Assembly (NCBI GenBank): GCA_016178155.1
Contig: JACOTZ010000262.1
Coordinates: 1 to 37,851 of the forward strand
Direction of reading: 5' to 3'
Length of the DNA: 37,851 nt
Origin: Acidobacteriota bacterium
Lineage (GTDB): Bacteria > Acidobacteriota > Terriglobia > Bryobacterales > Bryobacteraceae
Below, one piece after another: positions 1,569 through 17,667 of the stretch (within the stretch, counting starts at the first letter, position 1; the number at the start of each line of letters is the position of its first letter). The position numbers and the translations under genes were made by a program. Below the pieces are notes generated by a model. It ran no database searches. It saw only the letters and a list, made by a program, of their open reading frames with translations, and was not told the origin of the DNA.

Positions 1569-1583
1569 ATCGGGTACGCATCC

Positions 1584-3011
1584 ATGACATCGCTCATACG
1601 GACAAGGCTTTTGAAGAAGCTGCCGGTGCCGGCCGCGGTTGCATTCGCGTGCCTGGCGATCACAGGCGCCGTTCAGGCGCAGTCGGTTGAGGAGCTGCGG
1701 CTGACGGTCGGCCGGAGCATCGTGCTCGACTATCCGAACGACATCCGACAGATCTCGACCAGCGACCCAGCGGTTGTGGACGCGATCGCAGTCACCACGC
1801 GCGAGATCCTGCTGCATGCGAAGGCGGCTGGTTCGGCGACGGTCATCATCTGGTCGAAGACGGGCCAGCGGACCATCTACAGCATCACGGTGGAGCAGAA
1901 CCTCGAGCCGCTGCGGCGGCTGCTGAAGGAGACGTTCCCGAAGGAGACCATCCAGGTGCAGTCGACGCGCGACTCTCTGTCGCTCACCGGCCGCGTCTCG
2001 ACCAAGGACGTGGCGGACAAAGTGGTCGCCATGGTCACGCCGTTCGCGAAGAGTATCGTCAACAACCTGCAGGTGGCGCCCGCGCCGGTGGACAAGCAGA
2101 TCATGCTGCGGGTCAAGTTCGCGGAGCTGAACCGCAACGCCAGCGTGGCGCTGGGCGCAAACGTCGTGTCCACGGGCGCGCTGAACACGATCGGCCGCGT
2201 CGCTACGGGGCAGTTTTCGCCGCCACAGACGAGCGAGCTGCGCGGCGGAATTCCGGCGGGGAACTCCGCGACCGCGAACTTCACGATCACGGACGCTTTG
2301 AACGTGTTTGCCTTTCGCCCGGACATCAATCTGGCGGCGTTCATTCGCGCGCTGCAGAGCCAGGGATTGCTGCAGATCCTGGCCGAGCCCAACCTGGTGA
2401 CGACCAACGGGAAGGAAGCGGCCTTCCTGGTGGGCGGCGAGTTTCCGGTTCCCGTCCTGCAGGGCGGGGGCAATGCCGGAGCGGTCACGATCCAGTTCCG
2501 CGAGTTCGGCATCCGGCTGCGGTTCAATCCGCTGCTGACGGAAAACAACACGGTCAAGATGTTCGTCCAGCCCGAGGTCTCCACCATTGACCTGGCCAAT
2601 GCCGTGACCTTTTCGGGATTCGTGATCCCGGCGCTGGCGTCGCGGCGCATGGAGACCAATATCGAGCTGAGTGAGGGCCAGAGTTTTGTGATCGGCGGCC
2701 TAATCGATGACCGCCTGACGGAAACCGTGCAGAAGATTCCGGGGCTCGCGAATATCCCGCTGCTGGGCGCGCTCTTCCGCAGCCGCGAGGAACGCAAGAA
2801 CAGGACCGAGCTGGTGGTGATCGTCACGCCCGAGGTGGCGCGTCCGCTGAATCCGGGAGAGCCGGCGCCACTGCCGGTGATGCCGCGCGAATTCCTGAAG
2901 CCGTACGCGCCGTCCGGCGCCTCGGGAGAGAAGCGCTCGCAGGCCGAGCCGGCGTCGCCGGCGGTGAAAGCGGGCAAAAAAGGCGCGGCAAAGAAGGAGT
3001 CGAAGAGCTAG
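1584..3011 (+). CDS. cpaC: Tad pilus secretin CpaC (RcpA)
   Basis: A 475-residue outer-membrane secretin forming the channel for the Tad pilus. A signal peptide ends near residue 33 (VQA followed by QS). The pilus-formation N-terminal domain spans about 38-105 (LTVGRSIVLDYP, then TSDPAVVDA), followed by a BON-like region to about 170 and the secretin core at about 240-425. The core contains LAEPNLVTTNGKEAAFLVGGEFPVPV and ends with the typical GLIDDRL...IPLLGALFRS and ELVVIVTPEVA blocks. The last 30 residues are Lys/Ala-rich and probably disordered. It starts 15 bp after cpaB. The multimeric channel location is established for the family. Confidence 0.95.
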   Translation: MTSLIRTRLLKKLPVPAAVAFACLAITGAVQAQSVEELRLTVGRSIVLDYPNDIRQISTSDPAVVDAIAVTTREILLHAKAAGSATVIIWSKTGQRTIYSITVEQNLEPLRRLLKETFPKETIQVQSTRDSLSLTGRVSTKDVADKVVAMVTPFAKSIVNNLQVAPAPVDKQIMLRVKFAELNRNASVALGANVVSTGALNTIGRVATGQFSPPQTSELRGGIPAGNSATANFTITDALNVFAFRPDINLAAFIRALQSQGLLQILAEPNLVTTNGKEAAFLVGGEFPVPVLQGGGNAGAVTIQFREFGIRLRFNPLLTENNTVKMFVQPEVSTIDLANAVTFSGFVIPALASRRMETNIELSEGQSFVIGGLIDDRLTETVQKIPGLANIPLLGALFRSREERKNRTELVVIVTPEVARPLNPGEPAPLPVMPREFLKPYAPSGASGEKRSQAEPASPAVKAGKKGAAKKESKS

Positions 3012-3039
3012 GCGTGAGAGGCGTTACGAGAGCGTAGCC

Positions 3040-4230
3040 ATGGCCCGAAAGGAAGAACTCACGGCGCTCCTGATCTCGCCGAGCCGCGCGCTCGCCGAGC
3101 AGTTCGCAGCGAGCCTGCAGGTTTCGCGCGCGTTCCGCATTCTGGCGGACGTGCCGCAGTACCTGAGCCCGCATCAGATTGACGGAAAGCTGCACCAACT
3201 GCGGCCGGACGTGCTGCTGCTGGACGTCGGCACGAGCCTGGATGCCGCGTGCGAGCTGATCCGCTTCGCCACGTCGCTGCGGCCGCCGGTGCACGTGATC
3301 GGGCTGCACCTGCACAACGACTCCACGGCGATCGTGAAATCGCTGCGCAACGGCGCCAGCGAGTTTCTTTACGCGCCCTTCGAAATTTCGGTTCAGGAAG
3401 CGGCGGTCTCGCGCATTCAAAAGCTGTTGCAGCCGGAGACGGGCAGCGACCGCGACCAGGGCAAGCTGGTGGTCTTCTCCAGCGCGAAGCCCGGATCAGG
3501 CGCTTCGACGCTCGCGGTGCAGACCGCCTTTGCCCTGCAGCGGTGCTCCAAACAGCCGGTGCTGTTGGTTGATCTCGACCTGATGTGCGGCAGCCTGGGC
3601 TTCTATCTCAAGCTCGAACCGCAGTACTCAATCGTGGATGCGCTGAGCAACTCCGAGCGGCTGGAGCCGGACTTCTGGTCATCGCTGGTGAGCAGCAACG
3701 GCGGCGTCGATGTGCTGGCGGGTCCGGAGCTGCCGCACCCGGAGCCGCTCGATCCGGCGCGCCTGCACGAGCTGCTGCAATATGCGCGGCGGCGCTACGC
3801 CTGGGTCGTCACCGATCTGCCCTCGATCTTTCATCGCGTAAGCCTGATGGCGCTCTCGGAATCCGACCGTGCGTTCCTGATCTCCACCTCCGAGCTGGGC
3901 AGCCTGCACCTGGCGCGCAAGGCGGTGCGAATGCTGACGCAGCTCGGTTTTGAGCCGAGCCGGTTTCAGTTGCTGGTGAACCGGATCAACAAGAACGACG
4001 GCATCAACACGGGCGGCCTGAGCAAGCTGTTCGACTGCAAGGTGGATGCCAGCCTGCCGAACGATTATTTTTCTCTGCACCGGGTGGTAGCGATGGGCGA
4101 GCCGCTGGAGGCCGATACGGAGCTGGGCCGGGCGATTGACGGCCTGGCGAGCAAGCTGGCCGGAGCGCTGCCGCCACAGACGGCGCTGCGCCGCCTGGGG
4201 CCGGCGCGGCCGGTGCTGTCGCTGCTGTAG
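3040..4230 (+). CDS. cpaE: Tad pilus localisation ATPase CpaE/TadZ
   Basis: A 396-residue protein with a response-regulator-like N-terminal domain (about 7-130, with Asp62 in LLLDVG) followed by a MinD/ParA-type ATPase domain (about 142-370). TadZ proteins place the pilus machine at its site in the cell. The P-loop reads SSAKPGSGAST. The signature lysine of deviant Walker A motifs is present (Lys150), but the lysine normally preceding Ser/Thr is replaced by Ala155. Such atypical P-loops are known in TadZ proteins and may mean weak or absent ATP hydrolysis. It lies 28 bp after cpaC and ahead of cpaF, as usual in tad operons. Confidence 0.9.
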   Translation: MARKEELTALLISPSRALAEQFAASLQVSRAFRILADVPQYLSPHQIDGKLHQLRPDVLLLDVGTSLDAACELIRFATSLRPPVHVIGLHLHNDSTAIVKSLRNGASEFLYAPFEISVQEAAVSRIQKLLQPETGSDRDQGKLVVFSSAKPGSGASTLAVQTAFALQRCSKQPVLLVDLDLMCGSLGFYLKLEPQYSIVDALSNSERLEPDFWSSLVSSNGGVDVLAGPELPHPEPLDPARLHELLQYARRRYAWVVTDLPSIFHRVSLMALSESDRAFLISTSELGSLHLARKAVRMLTQLGFEPSRFQLLVNRINKNDGINTGGLSKLFDCKVDASLPNDYFSLHRVVAMGEPLEADTELGRAIDGLASKLAGALPPQTALRRLGPARPVLSLL

Positions 4231-4242
4231 GGATGAGTGGAT

Positions 4243-5604
4243 ATGCTGCCAACGTTTGAACAAAAAATGCCGGCCCAGTTGACCTGGGAACAAAGGCTGC
4301 TGAAGAACGCGGCTCAGCCGCGGGTGCATCTCAAGCCCGAATATCAGGAGCTGAAGTTCACGCTCCACCGCAAGCTGCTCGACAAGATCAACCTGGAAGC
4401 GCTCGCGACCATCGACAACCAGCGGGTCCGCTCCGAGGTCCGGCAGGCTTTGATCACGCTGATCGACAACGAGCCCACCCTGCTGAGCTCGCTCGAAAAG
4501 CAGCAGATCTGCGATGAGGTGCTGGACGAGGTTTTCGGTCTCGGGCCGCTCGAGCCGCTGCTGCAGGATGCGACCATTTCCGACATCCTGGTGAACGGCA
4601 GCAAGCTGGTGTTTGTCGAGCGCCGCGGCATTCTGGAGCCGACCAGCGTTACGTTTCGCGACGACCAGCACCTGCTACGGATCATCGACAAGATTGTTTC
4701 CCAGGTCGGGCGCCGCATCGACGAATCCAACCCCATGGTGGATGCGCGCCTGAGCGACGGCTCGCGCGTCAACGCCATCATCCCGCCGCTCGCGCTCGAC
4801 GGGCCGCTGCTCTCGATCCGGCGTTTCGCGCAGGACAAGCTGATGGCGCCGGACCTGGTCGACCGCAAGTCGATGACTCAGGGCATGATGGAGCTACTGG
4901 AGGCGGCCGTCAGGGCGCGGCTGAACATCATCGTTTCCGGGGGCACGGGCTCGGGAAAGACGACGCTTTTGAACGCGCTTTCGGCATTCATCAACAAAAA
5001 GGAACGCATCGTCACCATCGAGGACGCGGCCGAGCTGCAGCTCAAACAGCCGCACGTGGCGCGTCTCGAGACCCGGCCGCCCAATCTTGAAGGTCAGGGC
5101 GCGGTGCGGCAGCGCGAGTTGCTGATCAACAGCCTGCGCATGCGTCCCGACCGGATCGTGATCGGCGAGGTTCGCGGGGGTGAGGCTCTGGACATGCTGC
5201 AGGCGATGAACACGGGCCACGACGGCTCGCTCACCACGATTCACGCCAACAGCCCGCGCGACGCCATCTCGCGCCTGGAAGTGATGGTCTCGATGGCCAA
5301 TGCGAACATGCAGCTCATCTCGATCCGGCAGCAGATTGCCAGCGCCGTTCAGGTGATCGTGCAGGCGAACCGCTTCAGCGACGGCACCCGGCGGACGGTG
5401 GCGATCACGGAGGTGACCGGCATGGAGGGCGAGATCGTCACCTTGCAGGACATCTTCGTATTCGAGAAGCGCGGCGTCAGCCCCGAGGGGCGGATCCTGG
5501 GACGCTTTGCCGCCACCGGCATCCGTCCGAAATTTTACGAAAAGCTGCTCGCGGCCGGCATCCGGCTGCGGCCGGACCTGTTCGACGAAGTTCTGGAAGT
5601 CTGA
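4243..5604 (+). CDS. cpaF: Tad pilus assembly ATPase CpaF/TadA
   Basis: A GspE/VirB11-type hexameric secretion ATPase of about 453 residues that powers Tad pilus extension at the inner membrane. The Walker A motif [10 protein letters not shown] lies near residue 235, followed by the acidic box ([10 protein letters not shown]), the Walker B-like stretch with [12 protein letters not shown], and the His box ([14 protein letters not shown]). The N-terminal domain carries the LGPLEPLL and DILVNG blocks typical of the family. I chose ATG 4243 because GGGA at 4230-4233 is well placed for it; an in-frame GTG at 4237 would add two residues. It follows cpaE by 12 bp and is followed by tadB after 7 bp. 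Confidence 0.95.
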
Positions 5605-5611
5605 GGCGCTC

Positions 5612-6589
5612 ATGAGTGGTTTTGCCATTATTGTCGTGCTCATCTGGCTCGGCGCCGTAGCCGCCTGGTGGTTTCTGACGCGCGTGCTGCGCACGGCGGA
5701 CATCGAGAAGATGCGCAATCGCCTGCTCGGCACGCAGCCGCGAAAGAAGGGCAAAGGAGAGCCTTCCAAGCCGGCATTGTTTGAAAGCGAGCCGGTGGGC
5801 AAAGGTCCCATCGTGCAGCGCCTGCTCAAGAAATACGACCTGATGGAGCGCACGCAGGCGCTGATCGAGCAGGCCGGTCTGAAGTGGCACGTGGCCCGCT
5901 TCGTGCACGGCTGCATGGCCGGATTCATTTTGGCTTACCTGCTGGCCTGGGTGTTCCTGCCGCCGTCCTTCCGTCCCTGGGCGCTGCTCGTGGCCGCCGC
6001 CGGGGGGGTGTTGCCGCTGATGTACGTGGTACGGCTGCGCAAGCGGCGGTTACGGGCGTTCGAGGAGATTTTCCCGGACAGCCTGGAATTCATTTCCCGC
6101 TCGATGCGGGCGGGGCACGCCTTCTCGGTGTCGCTCGAGATGATCTACCGTGAGTTCCAGGAACCACTGGCGGGAGAATTCCGGCGTACGTTCGAGGAAC
6201 ACAACCTCGGCCTGCCGCTGGACGTGTCGCTGCAGAAGCTGTCCACGCGCGTGCCTCTGCTCGACGTGCAGTTCTTTGTCTCGGCGGTGCTGCTGCAGAA
6301 GCGCACGGGCGGCAACCTCGCGGAAATCCTGGACAAGCTCGCCTACGTCATCCGCGAACGCTTCAAGCTGCGCGGGAAGATCCGCGCCGTCAGCGCGCAC
6401 GGGCGCATGACCGGTATTGCGCTGACGTGCATTCCCATTGTGGTGGCGATCCTCATGTTCTTCACGAATCCGGATTACGTGAAGTTCTTCTTTCTCGACG
6501 AGACCGGCAACATCATGGCCGGGGTAGCGGTCGCGCTGCAGTTGCTCGGCTACCTCTGCATCAAGAAGATCGTGGCGATCGAGGTCTGA
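5612..6589 (+). CDS. tadB: Tad pilus inner-membrane protein TadB
   Basis: A 325-residue polytopic protein of the type II secretion F family, the inner-membrane platform for the CpaF ATPase. It has an N-terminal membrane helix (about 3-22), a basic cytoplasmic stretch, a central helix pair (about 101-142), the conserved F domain with FPDSLEFISRSMRAGHAF...SLEM (about 150-290), and two C-terminal helices. The ATG at 5612 is chosen because GAGG (5603-5606), overlapping the cpaF stop, sits just before it and because the protein then begins with a membrane segment. The frame is open further left inside cpaF, but that part is not pilus-like. It probably pairs with TadC. Confidence 0.92.
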   Translation: MSGFAIIVVLIWLGAVAAWWFLTRVLRTADIEKMRNRLLGTQPRKKGKGEPSKPALFESEPVGKGPIVQRLLKKYDLMERTQALIEQAGLKWHVARFVHGCMAGFILAYLLAWVFLPPSFRPWALLVAAAGGVLPLMYVVRLRKRRLRAFEEIFPDSLEFISRSMRAGHAFSVSLEMIYREFQEPLAGEFRRTFEEHNLGLPLDVSLQKLSTRVPLLDVQFFVSAVLLQKRTGGNLAEILDKLAYVIRERFKLRGKIRAVSAHGRMTGIALTCIPIVVAILMFFTNPDYVKFFFLDETGNIMAGVAVALQLLGYLCIKKIVAIEV

Positions 6590-6592
6590 GGC

Positions 6593-7516
6593 ATGGCGCA
6601 GATCATTCTTACCGCATTGTTGTTCATGGTGGTGATGGTCGTGATTACCATGGCCGGAATGCGGCTGTGGGTGCGGCCGAAGGAAGCGATGGAGCGCGTG
6701 GCGGGGACCTCGATGCAGCATCGCGAAGCGGCCCCGGTGCACCCGAGCCTGGCGTTCCGCGAGATGCTGCAAAGGCTGGGAAACATCATCCCGGCGTCGC
6801 CCAAAGACGCCAGCGTGATGCAGCGGCGGCTGATCCGTGCCGGCATCCGCAACCAGAAGGCGCTGAAGATTCTGTACGGCTCGAAGCTGGTGTTGGGCAT
6901 CCTGTGCCCGCTGCTGATGACGTTCGCGGTCAGCAGTTCGTCGGCCGACCCCTCCAACAAGGTGATGGCGGTGCTGTTTGCCGCGGTCCTGGGATTTTTC
7001 GGTCCGAATGAATACATCAAGATCCGCTCGCGGCGGCGGCAGAAGGAGGTTCGGCGGGGGCTGCCGAATGCTCTTGACCTCATGGTGGTGTGCGTTGAGT
7101 CCGGGCTCGGGCTTGACCAGGCAATTCTCCAGGTTTCGAAGGAGCTGGAGCATGCGCACCCGGAAATCAGCGAGGAGTTCGCGCTGGTGAACCTGGAGCT
7201 GAAGGCGGGCAAGCGCCGCACCGAGGCTCTGCGCAATCTGGCGGAGCGAACATCGGTCGACGACCTGAAGAAGCTGGTGGCCGTGCTGATCCAGGCCGAC
7301 CGCTTCGGCACGGGGATCGCGCAGAGTTTGCGGGGGCACGCCGATTATATGCGTGTGCAGGCCAGGCAGACGGCCGAGGAGAAAGCGGCCAAGCTCGGTG
7401 TCAAGCTCGTGTTTCCGATCTTCTTTTTCATTTTGCCGACGCTCTTTGTGGTGACCGTCGGTCCGGTGGTGGTGAAGATCATCCGCGAGCTGCTCCCGAT
7501 GATGAATTCGATTTGA
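6593..7516 (+). CDS. tadC: Tad pilus inner-membrane protein TadC
   Basis: A 307-residue type II secretion F-domain protein, the second inner-membrane platform subunit. There is an N-terminal helix (about 5-23), a helix pair around 98-137, the F domain with LPNALDLMVVCVESGLGLDQA (the GLGLDQA pattern is typical of TadC), then QTAEEKAAKLGVKLVFP and a final hydrophobic helix ending near residue 298. It starts 3 bp after the tadB stop, so the two are probably translationally coupled. It is the last recognisable tad gene: tadD-tadG, pilin and prepilin peptidase genes do not follow. Confidence 0.92.
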   Translation: MAQIILTALLFMVVMVVITMAGMRLWVRPKEAMERVAGTSMQHREAAPVHPSLAFREMLQRLGNIIPASPKDASVMQRRLIRAGIRNQKALKILYGSKLVLGILCPLLMTFAVSSSSADPSNKVMAVLFAAVLGFFGPNEYIKIRSRRRQKEVRRGLPNALDLMVVCVESGLGLDQAILQVSKELEHAHPEISEEFALVNLELKAGKRRTEALRNLAERTSVDDLKKLVAVLIQADRFGTGIAQSLRGHADYMRVQARQTAEEKAAKLGVKLVFPIFFFILPTLFVVTVGPVVVKIIRELLPMMNSI

Positions 7517-7522
7517 GCAATG

Positions 7523-7546
7523 GCGGCGCACGCTCGCCGGCGCCGC
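7523..7546 (+). other. GC-rich hairpin after tadC
   Basis: GCGGCGC (7523-7529) pairs perfectly with GCGCCGC (7540-7546) across a 10-base loop, 6 bp after the tadC stop. No T-run follows, so it is not a classical intrinsic terminator. It may slow transcription or protect the 3' end of the tad message, setting the level of the small ORF that follows. Confidence 0.35.
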
Positions 7547-7579
7547 GGAGTAATGGACCTTGAATGAAAGGAGAACGTC

Positions 7580-7672
7580 ATGGACCAGTCAATGATCCGG
7601 ATCGTATGCACCGTCCTGGCAGTCATTCTGCTTGGGGTGATCGTGTTGCGGCGTAAGAAACGCGCCGAATAG
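7580..7672 (+). CDS. Candidate 30-residue single-helix membrane protein
   Basis: A short frame of 30 codons with an excellent Shine-Dalgarno (AAAGGAGA at 7567-7574, six bases between AGGAG and the ATG). The product has a polar start (MDQSMIR), one hydrophobic helix at about residues 8-23, and a basic end (RRKKRAE), which predicts one membrane span with a cytoplasmic C-terminus. It lies 63 bp downstream of tadC, between two hairpins. I do not recognise it. It could be a small accessory of the Tad machine or an independent regulator of a membrane complex. It lacks the pilin processing motif, so it is not a Flp pilin. Confidence 0.5.
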   Translation: MDQSMIRIVCTVLAVILLGVIVLRRKKRAE

Positions 7673-7704
7673 CGGGTTCGCGTTCCCCAAAGGGTTCGAT
7701 CGCG

Positions 7705-7730
7705 GGGGCTGGGCGCGGTGCTTCAGCCCC
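7705..7730 (+). terminator. Possible terminator hairpin after the tad operon
   Basis: GGGGCTG (7705-7711) pairs with CAGCCCC (7724-7730) over a 12-base loop, between the 30-codon ORF and the propeller gene. A T-run is lacking, so this is a hairpin of terminator strength without the usual tail. It plausibly separates the tad operon from the next gene. Confidence 0.35.
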
Positions 7731-7826
7731 GGCGCGGACACTTCGCTATGCGGCCGGAGAGGTAGAGGTGTCAGGTCCCTGCATGGGATCGAGAGGATTG
7801 CATCAGGTGATCGAGGTGTTGCTTTT

Positions 7827-10802
7827 ATGAATCGCAGACGTTGGTTGTCGAAAACCGCTCTTATCTTTCTGCTCGCGGCCGGGGCGCCGCTGCTGGCAGC
7901 CACTTTCGGCAAAGTGGTCGCCATTGGCGGCCACGCGGCGGACCTGGCGCTCGATGAAGGCCGGGGCGTGCTCTACGTCGCCAATTTCACGGCCAATCGC
8001 ATCGAGGTGATGTCGCTTGCCGACTACACGGTGCAGCGCTCCATCAACGTGGCGGCGCAGCCGAGCGGGCTCGCTCTGTCGCCCGACGGCCGCTACCTGG
8101 TGGTGGTGCATTTCAGCAACTTCGCGGCTCCGGCCACGCCGAACAACGCGATCACCGTGATCGACCTGAGCGCCGACTCCCGCCAGACGTTCGCTCTCGG
8201 GAACCCGCCGCTCGGGGTGGGCTTCGGCATCGACAACAAAGCTCTCATCGTCACCACCAAGGAAATCATCATCTTCGATCCGGCGAGCGGCGCCACTTCC
8301 GTAGCGGGCACGATCACCGAGATCGCGGCCAAGACCCTGCCGCAGCCACCCGCCACGTTCCCGAACACCATCAAGTCGGCCTCCATCGGCGTGTCGGGCG
8401 ACGGGCAGCGCATGTATGTTTTCGGCGACGGCATCACGTTCAGCTACGACGTCAACAGCAAGTCGATCACGCCGGGCGGGTTCGTCTTCGGCGGCGGTCC
8501 GGTCGGCCCGCGAGTAGTGAGCGTCAACCACGACGGTTCCCGCTGGATGGGCGCCTGGATGTTGATCGATGATCGCAGCACGTTCATCAGTTGGCTGGAC
8601 AACACGGCGCAATCACTCGACATCGGCACCTCGGTGTTCGATTCGGCGCGCGGTCTGATCTATGCCCAAGTGCAGGAGCGCGGCGAAACTCCCCAGAGCG
8701 CGCCGGTGCTGAAGATCCTCGACACCGACAACCTGCTGCTGCGGGACAAGATCCGGCTGCCCGAGCACTTCCAGGGCAGGAGCGTGCTCTCGGCCGACGG
8801 CAGCACCATGTTCGGAGTTTCGGAAAGCGGCATTATCGTGCTGCCCGTGGGTGACCTCGAGCGCGCGGCCCGCGTGAACGCGGTGCAGGAAGACCTGGTA
8901 TTCCGCGGGAACTTCTGCGATCGCGCGGTAGCCACCCAGACGCTCACCATCGTGGATGCCGGAGGAGGAAATACGCCTTTCACCGTCAGCACGACCCAGG
9001 CGGGCGTGCGGCTGTCGCCCGCCTCGGGCGTGACTCCCGCGGTGGTGCGCGTCACGGTGGACCCGGGCGCCTTCGCCAACCTGAAGGGCACGGTGGCGGC
9101 GAACATCACGATCAAGTCGCAAGCGGCCGTGAACATTCCCCGGGACGTGCGCGTGCTGATCAACTCCCGCGAGCCCGACCAGCGCGGAAGTTTCGTCAAC
9201 ATCCCGGGAACTCTGGCCGACATCGCCGCCGACCCGGGCCACGACCGTCTGTTCGTTCTGCGCAAGAGCCATAACGATGTGCTGGTCTTCGACGCGAACA
9301 CGATGAGCCAGGTGGGGGTGCTGCGGACGGGCAATGCGCCCACGGGGATGGCGGTCACGTTCGACCGGCGTTATCTGCTGGTTGCGAACTCGGCCTCCTG
9401 GGTGGTCGGCGTGTGGGACCTGGAAACGCTCGAGAGCCTGCCGCCCATCCGTGTGCCGATGTCTCCGCACTCGATCGCGGTCTCGAGCAACGCCATCCTG
9501 ATCCATGGTGTGGACCACCAGAACAAAGGCTGGCTGTTGCGCGCGGACCTGTTCAGCCGGCAGGCGGAGAAGTTCGCCTCGCTGGGGATCTTCGAGAACG
9601 GCAATCTCGCGCCGGACGGGCGCCTGGTGGCAACGCCGAACGGCTCATCCATTCTCTATGCCCAGCCCGACGGGACGCTGTTGCTGTACAACGCGAACCA
9701 GAACACTTTCACGGTCGGCCGCAAGGATGCGGCGATCCAGGGAGCGATTGCCGCCTCCAGCTTTGATCAGTTCGTCGCCGGCAACCGCCTGCTGAACGCA
9801 TCGCTGGTTCCGACGGCGCAGTTTGAGACGGCGACCGGCCAGACCGCCGGCTTCGCTTTCAGCGACGAAGGCGGCATCCGCTTCAGTGCGCCGAACGCGT
9901 CCAGCCCGGGCGTGCTGCAGCGCGTGAATCTGCGCAACGGCGACAGCATCCGGCCGACCCGCACCATCGAGGCGCCGGTACTCAGCAGCACCGAAATCCC
10001 GCTGACGCACGCGCTCGCAATTCTTCCGAACCGGACTGGCCTAGTGTCCCTCAGCACATCGGGCATGACCGTGTTTCCCTGGACCTACGACGAAGCCGTG
10101 GCGCCGCCGCGGCTGGAAAGCGTCGTCAATGCCGCCGATCTCTCCCAGCCGGTCGCGCCCGGGGGGCTGATCAGCGTGTTCGGGCAGAACCTCAGCCCGG
10201 TCACCCAGGCGTCGCGCCAAAACCCGCTGCCGACCCAGCTTGGCGATAGCTGCCTGACGGTGAACGGGGTCGGCGTGCCGGTCCTGTTCGTCTCGCCACG
10301 GCAGATCAACGCCCAGCTCCCATTCCAGGTCGACGGCAACACGACTCTGCGGCTGAACACGCCGGGGGGCGTCAGTGATAACTTCAACCTGACGATCCTG
10401 GCGGCGGCGCCCAGCATCTTCCGTACCGGCAGCGCCGGACCGATGACGGACATCCCGCTGGTCATCCGGACAAGGAACAATGAGCTGGTGACCGTGTCGA
10501 ACCCGATTCACCACGGCGACGTGATCACGATTCTGGCCACGGGCCTCGGACGCACCACCCCGTCGGTCGAGACCGGGACGCCGGCTCCGGAGGACACCCT
10601 CACGTCGGCCATCATTCCGCCGACGGTGACCATCGGGGGCGCCGAGCTCGAAGTCACATTCGCGGGGCTGGTGCCCGGGCAGATAGGCGTGTACCAAATT
10701 AACGCCATCGTGTATGGCACTGTACCTCCGGGCATGGACTTGCCGCTCGAGATCAAGCAGGGCGGCGCGTCCACCGTCGTCAGCGTCAGAGTAGTCGAAT
10801 AG
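7827..10802 (+). CDS. Secreted beta-propeller protein with Solibacter C-terminal domain
   Basis: A 991-residue exported protein. The signal peptide covers residues 1-25 (RRR, hydrophobic core, LLAA|TF). Two stretches of YVTN-like beta-propeller repeats follow (about 27-350 and 460-640), with phrases such as LYVANFTANRIEVM, SPDGRYLVVVH and RYLLVANSASWVVGVWDL. Between them lies an immunoglobulin-like segment (about 360-450). The end (about 760-991) is the Ig-like domain known as the Solibacter C-terminal domain (TIGR03437 type; SVVNAADL...PGGLISVFGQNL, then INAQLPF). The start is supported by GAGG at 7813-7816. The protein is probably surface or periplasmic; the ligand is unknown. The domain is a strong lineage marker, and such proteins exist in many paralogues in Solibacter. 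Confidence 0.85.
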   Translation: MNRRRWLSKTALIFLLAAGAPLLAATFGKVVAIGGHAADLALDEGRGVLYVANFTANRIEVMSLADYTVQRSINVAAQPSGLALSPDGRYLVVVHFSNFAAPATPNNAITVIDLSADSRQTFALGNPPLGVGFGIDNKALIVTTKEIIIFDPASGATSVAGTITEIAAKTLPQPPATFPNTIKSASIGVSGDGQRMYVFGDGITFSYDVNSKSITPGGFVFGGGPVGPRVVSVNHDGSRWMGAWMLIDDRSTFISWLDNTAQSLDIGTSVFDSARGLIYAQVQERGETPQSAPVLKILDTDNLLLRDKIRLPEHFQGRSVLSADGSTMFGVSESGIIVLPVGDLERAARVNAVQEDLVFRGNFCDRAVATQTLTIVDAGGGNTPFTVSTTQAGVRLSPASGVTPAVVRVTVDPGAFANLKGTVAANITIKSQAAVNIPRDVRVLINSREPDQRGSFVNIPGTLADIAADPGHDRLFVLRKSHNDVLVFDANTMSQVGVLRTGNAPTGMAVTFDRRYLLVANSASWVVGVWDLETLESLPPIRVPMSPHSIAVSSNAILIHGVDHQNKGWLLRADLFSRQAEKFASLGIFENGNLAPDGRLVATPNGSSILYAQPDGTLLLYNANQNTFTVGRKDAAIQGAIAASSFDQFVAGNRLLNASLVPTAQFETATGQTAGFAFSDEGGIRFSAPNASSPGVLQRVNLRNGDSIRPTRTIEAPVLSSTEIPLTHALAILPNRTGLVSLSTSGMTVFPWTYDEAVAPPRLESVVNAADLSQPVAPGGLISVFGQNLSPVTQASRQNPLPTQLGDSCLTVNGVGVPVLFVSPRQINAQLPFQVDGNTTLRLNTPGGVSDNFNLTILAAAPSIFRTGSAGPMTDIPLVIRTRNNELVTVSNPIHHGDVITILATGLGRTTPSVETGTPAPEDTLTSAIIPPTVTIGGAELEVTFAGLVPGQIGVYQINAIVYGTVPPGMDLPLEIKQGGASTVVSVRVVE

Positions 10803-10906
10803 CAAGCCCAGGACCGAGTCCCAGGGCACTTCAACACGAGAGCGATATCGCGCGGCAGATCGCATAGAGCCGAAGTGCGCGTCGGCCGCCGAGCGAAGAG
10901 GAGCAT

Positions 10907-11542
10907 ATGCAAAGACTGTTGCTTGCGCTGGGGGTGGCCCTGGCCGCCCCGCTCGCCATTGCGCAAAAATACGAATTCGCCGTCGCGGGCGGCGGCAGCT
11001 TTCACAACTCAAAGGACGTGTCGGGGCCGAGAGGGTCCGCGAGCGCGGGGTTCGAGAACGGCTGGGCGGCGTCGGCGGGTGTCGGCCACGATATGTACAC
11101 CCATCTTGGCGGCGAGATCCGCTATATGTTCCAGCAGCACGACATGAAAGTATCCTCCGGCGGGACGAAGGCCACGTTCGGCGCCCAGTCGCACATCATC
11201 CACTACGATCTTGTGATACACGGCGCCCCGCGCGGCGCCAAGATGCGGCCGTACGTCGCGGGCGGTGGCGGCGCGAAGATTTACCGCGGCACCGGCGCCG
11301 AGCGTGCCTTTCAACCGCTCAGCAACGTCGCGATCCTTACCAAAACACAGGAAACCACGGGGCTGGTTTCGGTCGGGGGCGGCGTCAAGTTCGAGCTTTC
11401 CGCCAACGTCCACCTTCGCGTGGATGTGCACGACTACCTCACGCCTTTCCCAAAGAAGGTCATCACGCCCGCAACGGGGGCGAGCGTCAGTGGCTGGCTC
11501 AACAACATCGTGCCGACCGTCGGGATCTCGTTCACATTCTGA
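10907..11542 (+). CDS. Small outer-membrane beta-barrel protein
   Basis: A 211-residue protein with a clear signal peptide (cut after AIA, before QKYEF) and alternating hydrophobic strands separated by Gly-rich turns. It ends in an aromatic residue in the pattern GISFTF, the usual sorting signal of outer-membrane barrels. It resembles the OmpW/OmpA-like eight-stranded barrel group (PF13505 type). The start is backed by AGAGGAG just before the ATG. It stands 104 bp after the propeller gene and 221 bp before the cytochrome operon, so co-transcription is uncertain. No enzymatic motif is visible. Confidence 0.75.
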   Translation: MQRLLLALGVALAAPLAIAQKYEFAVAGGGSFHNSKDVSGPRGSASAGFENGWAASAGVGHDMYTHLGGEIRYMFQQHDMKVSSGGTKATFGAQSHIIHYDLVIHGAPRGAKMRPYVAGGGGAKIYRGTGAERAFQPLSNVAILTKTQETTGLVSVGGGVKFELSANVHLRVDVHDYLTPFPKKVITPATGASVSGWLNNIVPTVGISFTF

Positions 11543-11763
11543 GCGGGCGCTGGCGGGGGGCACGTCCGAACCAGCCGGCCGTGCAGGGCGCGCACAAGCG
11601 TCGCGGAGGCGAGAGGCGCGAAACCCGCTGTGGGCTTGTGAGGCAGCCGCGCAGCGCCGCGGACGCGGCGAACGAGGCGATTTCGACGTGACTGAGCGCG
11701 GACAACGGGCCGGTTGCGGCGTCCGCAGGGCCGGATGTAACGCGAGCGGACGCGCGGAACTCC

Positions 11764-12750
11764 ATGGTCGAGTGGAAGGTTGTCCGATATAGTGTGAAAG
11801 TGCACGCCGCAAGCCGCCGAATGGCCGCGCTGTTCGTGTTGGCGCTCGCGGCTTGGGGTCAAACGGGCCCACTCACGACTCCAGCCAATCCGGCGCAGCC
11901 GCAATACGTCGGCAGCTCGGTCTGCCGCGGCTGCCATCCCAACGTTTGGGTGAACTTCTACAAGAATCCGCATTACAAGCTGCTGGCGAGCGGCGACGAG
12001 CCGCCCGAGCGGGCGGGTTGCGAAGGCTGCCACGGACCGGGCAAGGCGCACGTCGAAGCCAGGGGCGGCAAAGCGACCATCCGCGCCTTCTCGGTGATGA
12101 CGCCGAAGCAGGTGCTCGATAGCTGCCTCGCATGCCATAGCCGGGACTTCCCGCGCGCGAACATCCGCCGCTCCGAGCACACGCTCAACAACGTTGTCTG
12201 CGCGAACTGCCATTCCATCCACCGGGCCGCGACGCCGAAGTTCCTGCTCGCCAAAGTGCAGCGGGAAGTCTGCTACGGCTGCCACACTTCGGTGCGCGCG
12301 CAGTTCTCCATGCCATTCAAGCACCGCGTGAATGAAGGTTTGATGCAGTGTTCGGATTGCCACAACCCGCACGGCGCGCCCTCGCCGGCGTGGCGCACGG
12401 GTTTGAGGCCGCGCATGACCAGCCAGGCGCTCGCCAACGAGGAGGCCTGTATGAAATGTCATGTCGACAAGCGCGGGCCGTTCCTGTTCGAGCACGCGGC
12501 GGTGCGCGCCGACGGCTGCGAAGTTTGCCACCAGCCGCACGGCTCCCCCAATCCGCGCCTGCTGCGGCGGCCGGTCGTTTTCACCGTGTGCCTCGAGTGC
12601 CACAACGGCGCGGGCAATTTCGGCCGCGAGGGCGACGGCATCACGGTCCAGTCACCTTCGCACAACATGGCTGATCCGCGCTTTCACAACTGCACGACCT
12701 GCCACGTGCGCATCCACGGCTCCAACGCCGATCCACGGTTCCTGAGATGA
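11764..12750 (+). CDS. mtrA: Decaheme cytochrome c, MtrA/DmsE/PioA family
   Basis: A 328-residue periplasmic cytochrome with ten CXXCH heme-binding motifs, at about residues 54, 86, 121, 146, 170, 196, 229, 252, 276 and 310. Ten hemes in about 330 residues is the size and count of Shewanella MtrA. Family landmarks are present: EGLMQCSDCHNPHG, KRGPFLFEHAAV and CHVRIHGSN near the end. MtrA-type proteins sit inside a barrel partner and pass electrons across the outer membrane. The next gene is such a barrel and overlaps by 4 bp (ATGA). The start is uncertain: ATG 11764, GTG 11794 and ATG 11821 are in frame and none has a strong Shine-Dalgarno. The signal peptide hydrophobic core is at about residues 20-32. 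The physiological direction of electron flow cannot be told. Confidence 0.92.
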   Translation: MVEWKVVRYSVKVHAASRRMAALFVLALAAWGQTGPLTTPANPAQPQYVGSSVCRGCHPNVWVNFYKNPHYKLLASGDEPPERAGCEGCHGPGKAHVEARGGKATIRAFSVMTPKQVLDSCLACHSRDFPRANIRRSEHTLNNVVCANCHSIHRAATPKFLLAKVQREVCYGCHTSVRAQFSMPFKHRVNEGLMQCSDCHNPHGAPSPAWRTGLRPRMTSQALANEEACMKCHVDKRGPFLFEHAAVRADGCEVCHQPHGSPNPRLLRRPVVFTVCLECHNGAGNFGREGDGITVQSPSHNMADPRFHNCTTCHVRIHGSNADPRFLR

Positions 12751-14753
12751 TGCCGCGGATTCTGATCGCCGCAATGCTCGCCGCCGCCGCGCCGGCCCAG
12801 GAGCCGGTCGCTCCCACCAACCTGCCCGTGGGTCCGCCCCGAGGCGAGGACCGCGGCGGCTACAACCTTGTCAACTCGTTCGAGACCGGCTACCGGTTTC
12901 ATACGGTCGACGGCAACCTCGGCAAGTACCGCAGCGACGTCAACTATGGAAACGGAGTGCGCCTGCTTTCGAGCAGCTTTTCCATCCACGCGAGGGAAGG
13001 TCATGGCGCCTGGCTCGACGAGTTGCTGCTGAACACGCAGGGCCTGGGCAACGACCCGTACGAGTCAGCGTCCTTTCGCGTCCAGAAGAACCGCGTGTAC
13101 CGCTACGACCTGTTGTGGCGGCGCAACGAGTACTACAATCCCGGGCTGAATATCGCGCTCGGCCAGCATTTTCTGGACACCACGCGCGCGCTGCAGGACC
13201 ACAGCTTCACACTTCTGCCGCAGTCGTGGATCAAGTTCTTCGCCGGCTATTCACGCAACCAGCAACATGGGCCGGGCCTGTCCACCATCCAGGTGTTCGA
13301 CATCCGCGGCGACGAATTCCCGCTCTTCAGCAACGTGCGCCGCAGCCAGGACGAGCTTCGCATCGGCAGCGAGATCGCGCTGGGCGGCCTCAAGCTTTCC
13401 TGGATGCGCGGCTGGGAATGGTTCAAAGACGACGACGAACAGGCCATCACAGGCCCGCTCGCAGGAAATCACCCAGATGACGCGACCACGCTCACTTCTT
13501 TTCGCCGTGCACAGCCGTATCACGGCGGCACGAACCGCTGGCTCGTGAACGTGCTCTACGACCGCGACAGGCTCTATTCGCTGAACGGCCGCTTCACGTA
13601 TGCGGGCGGCCGGCGCCGGTTCATTTTCGACGAACTGCTCTCGGGCACCGACCGCTTCGGCGCCGCGCGGGCGAGGCAATTGCTCGTTTTCGGCGATGCG
13701 CGCCGGCCGGTGTTGGCGGCCAACCTGACGACGAGCATTTTCCCGGCACGGACGATTACGGTGGTGAATCACACTTCCATCCATCACACGCGCATGGAAG
13801 GCGACGGTTCATTCCGCGAGATGAGTCTGCTCGGTTTGTTCACCGAGCGCGTGAACTTCCGGTTTCTGGGAATCCGGACGATCGCCAGCACGACCGATCT
13901 CGACATCCGCGTGCACGATCGCGTCAATTTCCGGGCCGGCTATCACGCGAGCACCCGGCGCATCCGCTCGATCGCGCAGGAGTTGTTCGAGAGCGGCCCG
14001 CCCGAGCGCGCCGCCGCCGAGCAGAGTAACGTGACCCATACGGGCCTGTTCGGCATTCGGGTGCGGCTCGCCTCACCGCTGACCTTGAATCTGGATTCGG
14101 AAATCGGCCGCGCCAATCGCCCGTTCTTCCCGGTCAGCGACCGCGATTACCACCTGCTCGGCGCGCGCCTGCAGTACCGCGCCCGAAACCTGCAGTTTTC
14201 CGCCGCCGCGCGCTCGCATTACAACTTCAACTCGGCCTCGCTGGCGTCCCATAGCTCGAGGGCGCGCAGCTACTCGGCTGATGCCTCCTGGTCGCCGCGG
14301 CCGTGGGCCGGCGTGGATGGGGGCTACAGCAAACTCCACCTGGACACGCTCTCCGGGATTGCGTACTTCGCGGCGGGCGACCTCATCAGCGGCCGTTCGC
14401 TCTACATCAGCAACCTGCACTTTGGCCACGCGACAGTGCGGCTCAGCTTGCGGCAGCGGGTCGATGTGTTTGCCGGATACAGCCGTGTGCAGGACACTGG
14501 CGACGGGAGGCGGGCCGGCGGCACCTTGCTCGGACGCCGCGTCACACCTCAGGAGGCCGCCGCGGCCGCTTTCAGCGCAGCCCGGACCTACCCGCTCGCT
14601 TTCTCAACGCCGATGGCGCGGGTTTCCATTCGGCTCCGGCAGAATGTACGCTGGAATATCGGGTACCAACGATACGAATATGCGGAGGAGTTCGGAAGGG
14701 CACAGGACTATCGTGCCCACACGGGATACACGAGCCTGACCTGGTCATTCTGA
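12747..14753 (+). CDS. mtrB: MtrB/PioB-type outer-membrane beta-barrel of a porin-cytochrome complex
   Basis: A 668-residue protein with a signal peptide (cut near APAQ|EP) and a long series of amphipathic beta strands ending in LTWSF, the aromatic C-terminal signature of outer-membrane barrels. Size (MtrB is about 700 residues), position immediately after a decaheme cytochrome and the 4-bp overlap all fit the MtrB/PioB decaheme-associated outer-membrane family (TIGR03509 type). Such barrels sheath the decaheme wire. The short N-terminus lacks the CXXC motif reported for Shewanella MtrB. The assignment rests on context and barrel features more than on sequence identity. No outer-surface cytochrome (MtrC/OmcA type) is encoded next to it. 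Confidence 0.82.
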   Translation: MMPRILIAAMLAAAAPAQEPVAPTNLPVGPPRGEDRGGYNLVNSFETGYRFHTVDGNLGKYRSDVNYGNGVRLLSSSFSIHAREGHGAWLDELLLNTQGLGNDPYESASFRVQKNRVYRYDLLWRRNEYYNPGLNIALGQHFLDTTRALQDHSFTLLPQSWIKFFAGYSRNQQHGPGLSTIQVFDIRGDEFPLFSNVRRSQDELRIGSEIALGGLKLSWMRGWEWFKDDDEQAITGPLAGNHPDDATTLTSFRRAQPYHGGTNRWLVNVLYDRDRLYSLNGRFTYAGGRRRFIFDELLSGTDRFGAARARQLLVFGDARRPVLAANLTTSIFPARTITVVNHTSIHHTRMEGDGSFREMSLLGLFTERVNFRFLGIRTIASTTDLDIRVHDRVNFRAGYHASTRRIRSIAQELFESGPPERAAAEQSNVTHTGLFGIRVRLASPLTLNLDSEIGRANRPFFPVSDRDYHLLGARLQYRARNLQFSAAARSHYNFNSASLASHSSRARSYSADASWSPRPWAGVDGGYSKLHLDTLSGIAYFAAGDLISGRSLYISNLHFGHATVRLSLRQRVDVFAGYSRVQDTGDGRRAGGTLLGRRVTPQEAAAAAFSAARTYPLAFSTPMARVSIRLRQNVRWNIGYQRYEYAEEFGRAQDYRAHTGYTSLTWSF

Positions 14754-14756
14754 GCC

Positions 14757-15068
14757 ATGTTTCGCGCCACGAACTTCACAGTCACGCTGCTTCTGCTGCT
14801 GGCGTTCACCATCTTCATGGCGGGATTCCGGCAGAGAAAGCCGCTCGAGAACAACTGGCCGCTGCTCTACTGGCTGCTGGTCGTGTTCTTTACCCTGGTG
14901 CGGCCCGAGGAGACGTTCAATTTCAGCATCATCCTGGTGGGACTCGCCTGCGGCATGCTGCTGCGCTTCGAGTTCATGAACGACTTCTTTGTGAAGACGG
15001 TGAAAGTGGTCGAGATGCTGGTCTGGCTTTACATTCTGTGGCGCGGCTTCGAGATGATCATCCTGTGA
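14757..15068 (+). CDS. Small four-helix membrane protein, third gene of the cytochrome operon
   Basis: A 103-residue, very hydrophobic protein starting 3 bp after the mtrB stop, so almost surely translationally coupled. Four membrane helices can be drawn (about 8-24, 36-47, 56-71 and 84-101), separated by short charged loops (RQRKPLENN, RPEE, RFEFMND). It contains no histidine and a single cysteine, so it cannot be a typical heme b or heme c protein. I do not recognise the family. The tight link to the electron conduit suggests a role in assembly of the complex or in the inner membrane, but that is inference from position alone. Confidence 0.75.
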   Translation: MFRATNFTVTLLLLLAFTIFMAGFRQRKPLENNWPLLYWLLVVFFTLVRPEETFNFSIILVGLACGMLLRFEFMNDFFVKTVKVVEMLVWLYILWRGFEMIIL

Positions 15069-15090
15069 CCGGCGCCGGCCGCCGCGTGGA

Positions 15091-15477
15091 CTACTTCTCG
15101 ACGGGCAGCCCGGCCGCCTGATAAGCTCTCCAGCCTCCATCGACTGAGATCACGCCGGTATAGCCCATCTGCTGCAAGGCGTCAGCGGCGAGCGCGGAGC
15201 GGAATCCTCCGCCGCAATACAGCACGATGCGAGCCGAGGTGTCAGGCACCGTGTTCTCGATGTCGCGCTCGATGACGCCCTTTCCGAGATGAATGGCGCC
15301 CGCGGCGTGTCCGGCAGCCCACTCGCTCTCTTCGCGCGTATCTACGAGCAGGAAAGGCTCGCCGCGCTCGCGCATGCGCCGGAGCTCGTCGATATCGATT
15401 TGGGGCACGCGCGTCTTGGCGTCTTTCACCAACGCCAGAAACCGTTCACTGTGCCGTTTCCCCGGTTGGGCCATCAC
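15091..15477 (-). CDS. Single-domain rhodanese-like protein
   Basis: A 128-residue protein with one rhodanese domain (about 25-125). It has the N-terminal block LLVDTREESEWAAGHAAGA and the active-site loop around Cys88 (YCGGGFRSA), with a CGGGFR hexad loop. An intact Cys predicts sulfur transfer from a persulfide, although the physiological donor and acceptor are unknown. It is the last gene of a minus-strand run; its start overlaps the murA stop by 4 bp (ATGA), so it is probably translated from the murA message. No signal peptide is present, so it is cytoplasmic. Confidence 0.9.
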   Translation of the reverse strand: MMAQPGKRHSERFLALVKDAKTRVPQIDIDELRRMRERGEPFLLVDTREESEWAAGHAAGAIHLGKGVIERDIENTVPDTSARIVLYCGGGFRSALAADALQQMGYTGVISVDGGWRAYQAAGLPVEK

Positions 15478-16736
15478 TCCTCCAGCCTGCGGATTTTCGC
15501 GCCGGCCAGCGCCAGCTTGGACTCTATGCTCTCATAGCCGCGGTCGATGTGGTACACGCGGTCGATTACGGTCTCTCCCCGCGCGACGAGTCCGGCGAGC
15601 ACCAGCGACGCGCTCGCCCGCAGGTCGCTCGCCATGACCGTAGTGCCGGACAGGGCGGCGGGGCCGGCCACGATCGCCTGCCGGCCCTCAATGCGGATAT
15701 TCGCGCCCATGCGGATCAGCTCCAGCGCGTGCATGAAGCGGTTTTCGAAGATGGTCTCGGTGATGAAGGCGATGCCCTGGGCCTGGGTCATCAGCGCCAG
15801 GTACTGCGCCTGGAGGTCGGTCGGGAAGCCCGGGTGCTCTTCGGTGATCAAGTCGACCGCCTGGAGCGGCCGTGGCGCCCGCACGCGCAGCGCTGCGGCA
15901 CCGGCCGGCTCCACCTCGGCTCCGGCTTCCCGGAGCTTGCCGATGAGCGCTCCCAGGTGATCGAGTTCGCAGTTCGCGACCACCAGGTCGCCCCCAGTGA
16001 TCGCGCCCGCCAGCAGGAATGTGCCGGCCTCGATGCGATCAGGAATGATGGTGTGCTCCGCCCCGCCGAGGCGGCTGACGCCCTGCACGCGCATGACGGA
16101 TGTGCCCGCGCCTTCGATCTTCGCGCCCATCTTCACGAGCAGCGCGGCGAGGTCCCCCACTTCCGGCTCGCGGGCTGCGTTTTCGAGAACCGTTTCGCCC
16201 TCGGCGAGCACGGCAGCCATGAGCACGTCCTCGGTGCCGGTCACCGTGATCCGGTCGAAGTTGATGCGAGTGCCGCGGAGGCCGTTGGGGGCGCGCGCTT
16301 CAATGTAGCCGCCCTCCTGCGTCAGGGTTGCCCCGAGCTGCTCGAGCGCGTGCACGTGCAGGTTGATGGGACGCGCGCCGATCGCGCATCCGCCCGGCAT
16401 TGACACCCTGGCGCGTCCGGTCCTGGCGAGCAGCGACCCCAGGACAAGGCTCGAAGCGCGCATCGTCTTCACCAGCTCGTAAGGCGCCGTCGGGTCTTGT
16501 ATGACGGCGGCGCGGACATGGAGCGGACCGTTCGGCTCCAGCACCAGCTCGGCGCCGATGTAGGCAAGCAGCTTCTCCATGGTGCGGATGTCCCGCACTC
16601 GCGGGACACGGCGCAACACCACGGCCTCGCCGGTAAGCAGGCAAGCTGCGAGCGCCGGCAGGGCCGCGTTCTTCGACCCGCTAGCGGGGATCTCCCCTTC
16701 CAGGCGCGCGCCGCCCTGGATGACGAAACGTTCCAT
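15474..16736 (-). CDS. murA: UDP-N-acetylglucosamine 1-carboxyvinyltransferase MurA
   Basis: A 420-residue enzyme, the usual MurA length. It transfers enolpyruvate from phosphoenolpyruvate to UDP-GlcNAc, the first committed step of peptidoglycan synthesis in the cytoplasm. Lys22 (ASGSKNAALP) and the catalytic Cys117 (MPGGCAIGARPINLH) are present; the Cys means the fosfomycin target residue is retained. Later blocks include EEHPGFPTDLQAQYLAL and ENRFMHALEL. It follows murQ by 31 bp on the same strand and overlaps the rhodanese gene downstream. Placing a recycling gene directly before murA suggests joint control of wall synthesis and recovery. Confidence 0.97.
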   Translation of the reverse strand: MERFVIQGGARLEGEIPASGSKNAALPALAACLLTGEAVVLRRVPRVRDIRTMEKLLAYIGAELVLEPNGPLHVRAAVIQDPTAPYELVKTMRASSLVLGSLLARTGRARVSMPGGCAIGARPINLHVHALEQLGATLTQEGGYIEARAPNGLRGTRINFDRITVTGTEDVLMAAVLAEGETVLENAAREPEVGDLAALLVKMGAKIEGAGTSVMRVQGVSRLGGAEHTIIPDRIEAGTFLLAGAITGGDLVVANCELDHLGALIGKLREAGAEVEPAGAAALRVRAPRPLQAVDLITEEHPGFPTDLQAQYLALMTQAQGIAFITETIFENRFMHALELIRMGANIRIEGRQAIVAGPAALSGTTVMASDLRASASLVLAGLVARGETVIDRVYHIDRGYESIESKLALAGAKIRRLEE

Positions 16737-16767
16737 TTTTGTGGATCGGTTTGAACCTGGCCGGCAG

Positions 16768-17667
16768 CTAGCCGGCCTTCTCCGATTGTAAGGCTTTGCT
16801 CAGCATGCCTCCGGCGGCCGCGAGCCTCCGCTCCGCTTCTTCGCGGCCGACGCCGAGCCGCGCCATCACCACGGCCGCCTTTACCTGTTTGGTCTCGTCA
16901 ACCAGCGCCGCCGCCCGCTCGTAGCTCACGCCCGCGATCTCCGCCACGATCCGCGCCGCCCGGTCGCGCAGCTTCTCGTTGCGCGGCTGCACGTTCACCA
17001 TGAGGTTGCCACAAACGTATCCAAGGCGAATCATCGTGCCGGTGCTGATCATGTTCAGCACGAGCTTGGTGGCCGTGCCAGCCTTCATGCGGGTCGAGCC
17101 GGTCACGACCTCTGGCCCGACGAGCAGCTCGATGGGCAGGTCCACCGCCCGGGACAGCTCCGAGTCGGGTGTGCAACTTATGCCCACGGTCAACGCGCCC
17201 AGCTCGCGTGCCTGGCGGATGGCGCCGAGCACGTAGGGCGTGCGCCCGCTGGCGGCGATTCCCGTCAAGGCATCCTTCGGGCCGAAGCCCCGCTCAATCA
17301 GGTCGCGCGCTCCGGCGGCGGGATCGTCCTCCGAGGCCTCGGTGGCGCGCGCCAGGGCTTTCTCGCCGCCGGCCAGGATGCCCTGCACTAGATCGTGGTG
17401 TACGTTGTAGGTCGGCGGACACTCGGCGGCGTCCAGCACCCCCAGCCGGCCGCTGGTGCCTGCGCCGATGTAGAACAACCGCCCACCGCACTCAAGGCGC
17501 TCGACGATGGCGTCCACTGCCCGGGCGATTGCTGGAATTTCACGCCCGACCGCGGCCGCCACTTTCGCGTCCTCGGCATTAATCACGCGCAGCAGTTCAT
17601 CGGTTGACAGTGTGTCGATGGAGGCGGATTGAGGGTTGCGCTGCTCGGTGAGCAGATGGCGGAACAT
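16768..17667 (-). CDS. murQ: N-acetylmuramic acid 6-phosphate etherase MurQ
   Basis: A 299-residue SIS-fold enzyme that cleaves the lactyl ether of MurNAc-6-phosphate to give GlcNAc-6-phosphate and lactate during peptidoglycan recycling. The signature GAGTSGRLGVLDAAECPPT is at about residues 68-86. Acidic residues Glu82 and Glu113 match the catalytic pair known in E. coli (Glu83, Glu114). The block VTGSTRMKAGTATKLVLN is also typical. The C-terminal part (about 240-295) is the small helical domain of the family. It heads a minus-strand operon with murA and the rhodanese. No MurNAc kinase or permease gene is adjacent. Confidence 0.96.
   Translation of the reverse strand: MFRHLLTEQRNPQSASIDTLSTDELLRVINAEDAKVAAAVGREIPAIARAVDAIVERLECGGRLFYIGAGTSGRLGVLDAAECPPTYNVHHDLVQGILAGGEKALARATEASEDDPAAGARDLIERGFGPKDALTGIAASGRTPYVLGAIRQARELGALTVGISCTPDSELSRAVDLPIELLVGPEVVTGSTRMKAGTATKLVLNMISTGTMIRLGYVCGNLMVNVQPRNEKLRDRAARIVAEIAGVSYERAAALVDETKQVKAAVVMARLGVGREEAERRLAAAGGMLSKALQSEKAG

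Follow-up and report, generated by a model that had tools for sequence, protein, structure and literature searches.

Genes at the locus

The window analysed here (37,851 nucleotides) is one entire contig, C128, of a draft acidobacterial genome (5.6 Mb, 477 contigs, 87% complete), so linkage can be followed only as far as the contig ends. A decaheme cytochrome gene is directly followed by the gene of a large barrel protein ending in LTWSF, and the two reading frames overlap by 4 bp (Table 1), as the preliminary description had stated. Genes of an Flp/tad-type pilus are located upstream of the pair, and they hold the same upstream position in many relatives. The promoter scan found no sites. No other multiheme cytochrome was called in the window, and the contig contains no MtrC/OmcA or CymA-like gene.

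Table 1. Coordinates of the features in the window (contig C128) and in the second cluster on contig C84.
Feature	Location	Positions	Strand	Remarks
Flp/tad-type pilus genes (RcpC/CpaB, secretin, T2SSE ATPase, T2SSF proteins)	window	720-7516		upstream of the pair
Small outer-membrane barrel gene	window	10907-11542	+	211 aa; flanking, upstream of the pair; PF13505, E 4.5e-8
Decaheme cytochrome gene	window	11764-12750	+	328 aa; alternative start 11821 possible
Barrel gene	window	12747-14753	+	668 aa; MtrB-like predicted fold
Small membrane-protein gene	window	14757-15068	+	103 aa; flanking gene
Barrel gene of C84	C84:17001-37000 piece	7899-9831	-	split over two frames
Octaheme protein with a fused cytochrome b561-type domain	C84:17001-37000 piece	13905-15542	+	divergent from mtrC
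Pentaheme NapC/NirT-family protein	C84:17001-37000 piece	15606-17063	+	divergent from mtrC

In each of the 43 named relatives with sufficient sequence, the decaheme gene is directly followed by a barrel-sized ORF, and this pairing is far beyond chance. The divergence of the cytochrome and that of the barrel are also correlated (r = 0.84); the correlation was not used as evidence of contact, because shared descent alone would give the same value. The named relatives are titled Bryobacterales, Solibacter, Terriglobia, Acidobacteria or similar in 46 of 47 cases, with one exception that is almost certainly a mislabelled MAG, and the cytochrome has its close relatives in MAGs with the names Bryobacterales, Solibacter, Sulfopaludibacter and subdivision-3 Acidobacteria. 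These titles place the organism in the Acidobacteriota, most likely in the order Bryobacterales. A public MAG titled Bordetella parapertussis (CALQCC020000007.1) has the same acidobacterial locus, and its title is most likely wrong.

The family of the window, Bryobacteraceae, was surveyed in 121 genomes, in which barrels of 38% identity or more were counted as window-type. The preliminary description had drawn the locus from 11764 to 15068. The pair stands within this range; whereas the third gene (14757-15068) belongs to the flanking locus and is not an obligate partner. Its product had no significant match in Pfam or NCBIfam and belongs to a membrane-protein family without description, which has the motifs NxPL and LLRFEF and is present in 70 of the 121 genomes. 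Of the 71 places of the small membrane gene, 45 adjoin a window-type barrel and 26 lie elsewhere. Many relatives also have the 211-residue barrel gene before the pair and the gene of the 103-residue membrane protein after it, which might suggest additional subunits, but neither is obligate. Three relatives (G391, G376 and G321) have the genes of tad-type secretion, of a protein of ~1000 residues, of the small barrel and of the small membrane protein in this order, with no mtrAB between them. The 103-residue protein was also considered as a new conduit subunit, which was rejected because of the 26 copies located elsewhere and the same flanks kept without mtrAB. Since the flanks are intact without mtrAB in these relatives, mtrAB looks like a two-gene unit that was gained or lost at its site.

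The cytochrome and the barrel

The cytochrome contains exactly ten CXXCH motifs, and the DmsE/MtrA landmarks named in the preliminary description are both present, KRGPF at residues 236-240 and IHGSN at residues 317-321. Among 22 homologs, the cores of these landmarks (GPF and HGS) and the ten heme-binding His are invariant. Exactly ten further His columns are conserved at 82-100% in these homologs, as expected for ten bis-histidine hemes. The search with the profile TIGR03508 (DmsE/MtrA family), which had been proposed as a check, gave 266.8 bits against a cut-off of 192.2 (E = 1.9e-79), and the alignment spans positions 1-257 of the 258 in the profile. The best PDB match is 6r2q_A (E 2.4e-35), which we take to be MtrA of the Mtr complex from PMC7198977 and general knowledge, as the molecule name in the PDB is unhelpful. 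An AlphaFold2 model of the lone cytochrome, built without hemes, was poor (pLDDT 60) and was set aside.

The match of the barrel to the MtrB/PioB profile, the lack of which had been named in the preliminary description as refuting, was not obtained. With E values of up to 1 admitted, neither TIGR03509 nor PF11854 matched the window barrel, and neither had a match over the cut-off anywhere in the genome. The PDB sequence search with the barrel found no match. NF041027 did not match the barrel itself, which contains no Cys and no CXXCH; some distant homologs match this model weakly.

The predicted structure points to a different outcome. The AlphaFold2 model of the barrel (pLDDT 84, pTM 0.75) has 26 predicted strands (our count), of which the initial ones are short, and a helix at residues 58-64 that links strands 1 and 2. 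The crystal structure of MtrB likewise has 26 strands, of which the first four are shorter, and its capping helix lies between strand 1 and strand 2 (PMC7198977). In the Foldseek search against the PDB, the top match of the model was MtrB (6r2q_B, E 6.1e-14, TM 0.66/0.68); all the others among the matches listed had TM of 0.45 or less, and TonB-dependent receptors ranked lower. The region of strands 1-2 contains a well conserved motif, K-Y-R-S-D-x-N-Y and variants.

Sequence comparisons agree weakly with such a fold through a chain of matches: the window barrel matches the barrel of a second mtr cluster on contig C84 (E 2.1e-16), and the N-terminal half of the latter scores 22.7 bits with PF11854, for which the cut-off is 23. 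A profile match of the barrel family to MtrB (6r2q_B, E 2e-5) was rejected as evidence, since the first alignment contained a true MtrB member and the match vanished once this member and several other distant rows were removed. When the barrel family was compared with this true MtrB, profile against profile, the result was not significant (a control barrel was also run). One locus (G291:C20:125000-143000) has two tandem decaheme-barrel pairs; one of the barrels is a true MtrB by TIGR03509 (283 bits), and the other belongs to a family related to the window barrel. Because the fold comparison outweighs the profile test, the window barrel is judged MtrB-like despite the profile failure, and we conclude from the model that it is probably an MtrB-type barrel too divergent for the curated models. 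The MtrAB-like conduit first described for this acidobacterium is therefore upheld by the cytochrome family and by the predicted 26-strand fold, but not by a profile match of the barrel.

A second mtr cluster and the two conduit types in the family

The multiheme proteins of the genome were sampled via family searches, which do not give an exhaustive list. The preliminary description had stated that no MtrC/OmcA or CymA is encoded nearby. This holds for the contig; however, the statement was incomplete, as OmcA/MtrC-family and NapC/NirT cytochromes are encoded, unlinked, on contig C84. The OmcA/MtrC-family decaheme protein of C84 has 681 residues and a lipobox-like N-terminus (TIGR03507, 527.9 bits), and the cluster encodes another MtrA (253 bits) and another barrel as well. 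A tetraheme gene is absent from this cluster. At the break in the C84 barrel gene, most of eight relatives align across with up to ~29 residues, against ~28 bases in C84; with its two frames and the missing stretch, the gene is either damaged or mis-assembled. Another contig, C180, encodes a 930-aa protein (1477-4269) that combines 19 CXXCH motifs with a weak cytochrome b561-type domain.

The counts in the family are estimates among the matches listed; many contigs are short, and some places are fragments on contig ends. Window-type barrels were found at 92 places in 89 of the 121 genomes; a separate set comprises barrels of a second, distant type, mostly at 24-36% identity. MtrC was detected in 92 of the 121 genomes. 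It lies within 6 kb of a window-type barrel at 1 of the 92 places, and close to a distant-type barrel at 44 of the 56 places among the matches listed. Window-type pairs are thus separate from MtrC. About 69 genomes have both the window type and MtrC (three unlisted genomes counted in), and about 20 have the window type without detected MtrC. The only window-type pair found with OmcA/MtrC alongside (PMTT01000161.1 / G361:C584, probably one record) is arranged as mtrA, barrel, mtrC. At several MtrC-linked loci of the family, the barrel gene is followed by a tetraheme gene.

A quick tree was reconstructed from 60 MtrA sequences. In it, 26 window-type rows grouped together (SH-aLRT 99), and another clade (SH-aLRT 99) comprised ten MtrC-linked rows of the family. 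Judged from this tree, both clades of MtrA are old and separate. The window pair as a recent duplicate of the C84 pair was rejected, since the two fall in separate clades. Across the phylum, 155 of 297 genomes had MtrA-family cytochromes, 46 had OmcA/MtrC and 29 had both (hand count); MtrA without MtrC is therefore the common state.

Proposed function and comparison with known systems

The pair is very probably an MtrAB-type porin-cytochrome conduit, which would conduct electrons through the outer membrane. Hemes would be attached in the periplasm, and the decaheme protein would then be threaded into the 26-strand outer-membrane barrel to form one complex, in which the bis-His heme chain of the cytochrome could carry electrons across the membrane. 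Since no surface cytochrome is encoded with the pair, either the outermost heme might act directly on soluble or chelated acceptors, or the pair might dock an unlinked surface protein, e.g. MtrC of C84. Electrons would most likely pass from quinol to a NapC/NirT protein or another multiheme quinol dehydrogenase, then to periplasmic cytochromes and the conduit, and would end on Fe(III), humic or similar acceptors. The full explanation, an MtrAB conduit without a surface tip and most likely with outward flow, is considered likely. With regard to direction alone, outward flow is cautiously favoured over inward flow.

The same conduit may also work inward and take up electrons from Fe(II) or another extracellular donor, as PioAB and MtoAB do, also without MtrC; this we regard as unlikely. 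The mtr clusters without MtrC were noted especially in Fe(II) oxidizers (PMC4245776), homologs of PioA/MtoA have been reported from Acidobacteriia (PMC10654088), and the window-type pairs have no adjoining MtrC at 91 of the 92 places. However, PioA/MtoA form no function-specific clade on published trees (PMC8805035), so the absence of MtrC does not show the direction. The HiPIP (PioC; PF01355) had no match in the 87%-complete genome, in which its absence is not proven. Electron uptake in the manner of PioAB, which the preliminary description had offered, therefore gained no positive evidence.

The pair might also be a spare or alternative core for the MtrC of C84, with a single surface cytochrome and a single quinol dehydrogenase serving both mtrAB modules, and it may replace the disrupted C84 barrel. 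OmcA/MtrC and NapC/NirT each have a single match over the cut-off in the genome, both on C84, and the C84 barrel gene is frame-disrupted. The coexistence of the window type with MtrC in about 69 genomes and the one relative with MtrC beside a window-type pair would also suit this explanation. It is nevertheless improbable, as about 20 genomes of the family have a window-type pair and no detected MtrC, both MtrA clades are old and distinct, and the break in C84 may stem from misassembly.

A conduit of the DmsEF kind, which would supply an exported molybdenum reductase with electrons and not a cytochrome, is very unlikely. The cytochrome belongs to a family named after DmsE. A DMSO-reductase type II alpha subunit is encoded on contig C440; it scores 1116.7 bits against a cut-off of 984.75, and its N-terminus has twin-arginine-like and lipobox-like motifs. 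This enzyme is, however, unlinked to the pair and sits in a cluster (~3590-12883) with a b-type cytochrome, a probable Rieske-like protein and a six-heme cytochrome. Unlike the DmsEFAB systems, the genome has no DmsA molybdenum reductase over the cut-off of TIGR02166 (best 197.7 against 777.7 bits). TonB receptors have 22 strands, and an ordinary transport barrel, with the decaheme protein alone in the periplasm, is hardly credible: the failure of the MtrB/PioB models and the TonB-dependent receptors lower in the fold search would fit it, but the 26 predicted strands, the wide margin of MtrB as the best fold match and the invariant pairing with the decaheme gene in relatives argue against it.

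The favoured explanation, the tipless MtrAB conduit, may be part of a wider pattern. Tentatively, Bryobacteraceae might have two genetically separate outer-membrane wires, one tipped with MtrC and the other regularly tipless with a barrel outside the MtrB/PioB models, which would differ in substrate or direction (soluble or chelated acceptors, or uptake). MtrAB-like genes in Acidobacteria are already known: decaheme cytochromes of the phylum (PMC3669403), a porin-cytochrome pair of Holophaga (PMC7399161) and MtrCAB of Bryobacterales (PMC8805035) have been published. In the open literature searched (with few subscription papers), no conduit was found that occurs family-wide without MtrC, has a barrel family to itself and coexists with MtrCAB. 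Surveys for MtrCAB, or those using the MtrB/PioB models, would miss the window-type conduit, although about three quarters of the genomes sampled from this family, which is common in soil, peat and groundwater, have it. The tipped and the tipless wire in the same genomes make the role of MtrAB without MtrC, and its direction, testable, and they bear on the suspected role of Acidobacteria in the iron cycling of wet soils.

Among the known systems, the GSU2203/GSU2204 families of Geobacter (NF041028 and NF041027) resemble the pair in that the window cytochrome scores 222 bits with NF041028; whereas all scores with these two models are under the curated cut-offs, and the barrel is not matched by NF041027. 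GSU2203/2204 were up 1.5- to 2.7-fold with iron oxides (PMC4070692). PioAB of Rhodopseudomonas and MtoAB of Sideroxydans are also MtrAB-type pairs without MtrC (PMC10654088, PMC4245776). The window differs from PioAB in the HiPIP, which was not found, and the long N-terminal extension reported for the Rhodopseudomonas PioA (PMC10654088) is absent from the 328-aa cytochrome. In contrast to MtoAB-MtoD-CymA, no MtoD or CymA is encoded beside the window pair, and the sole NapC/NirT match of the genome is on C84.

The MtrCAB Group 5 (Acidobacteriia/Bryobacterales, PMC8805035) is from the same order as the window organism. Its clusters have a tetraheme gene after the barrel, and no quinone oxidoreductase was seen nearby (Baker et al. 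2022, PMC8805035). The tetraheme feature is shown by several MtrC-linked loci of the family; whereas the C84 cluster shares only the MtrC-MtrA-barrel core. In C84, the octaheme/b561-type and NapC/NirT genes adjoin the MtrC cluster, unlike the Group 5 clusters of Baker et al. The window pair differs from Group 5 in having no MtrC and an MtrA in a separate, strongly supported clade. Paludibaculum fermentans, a species from the order of the window organism, reduces Fe(III) (PMC8407742), which fits the favoured explanation.

The Shewanella MtrCAB complex (6R2Q, S. baltica) differs from the window in that the window barrel is below detection by the MtrB/PioB models, and the contig has no MtrC or CymA gene. 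The MtrAB core is nevertheless alike: both have a decaheme MtrA-family cytochrome and a barrel, in the window a predicted one, of 26 strands, of which the first are short, and a helix that links strand 1 to strand 2. Moreover, the Shewanella MtrAB without MtrC reduces soluble Fe(III) chelates (PMC7198977).
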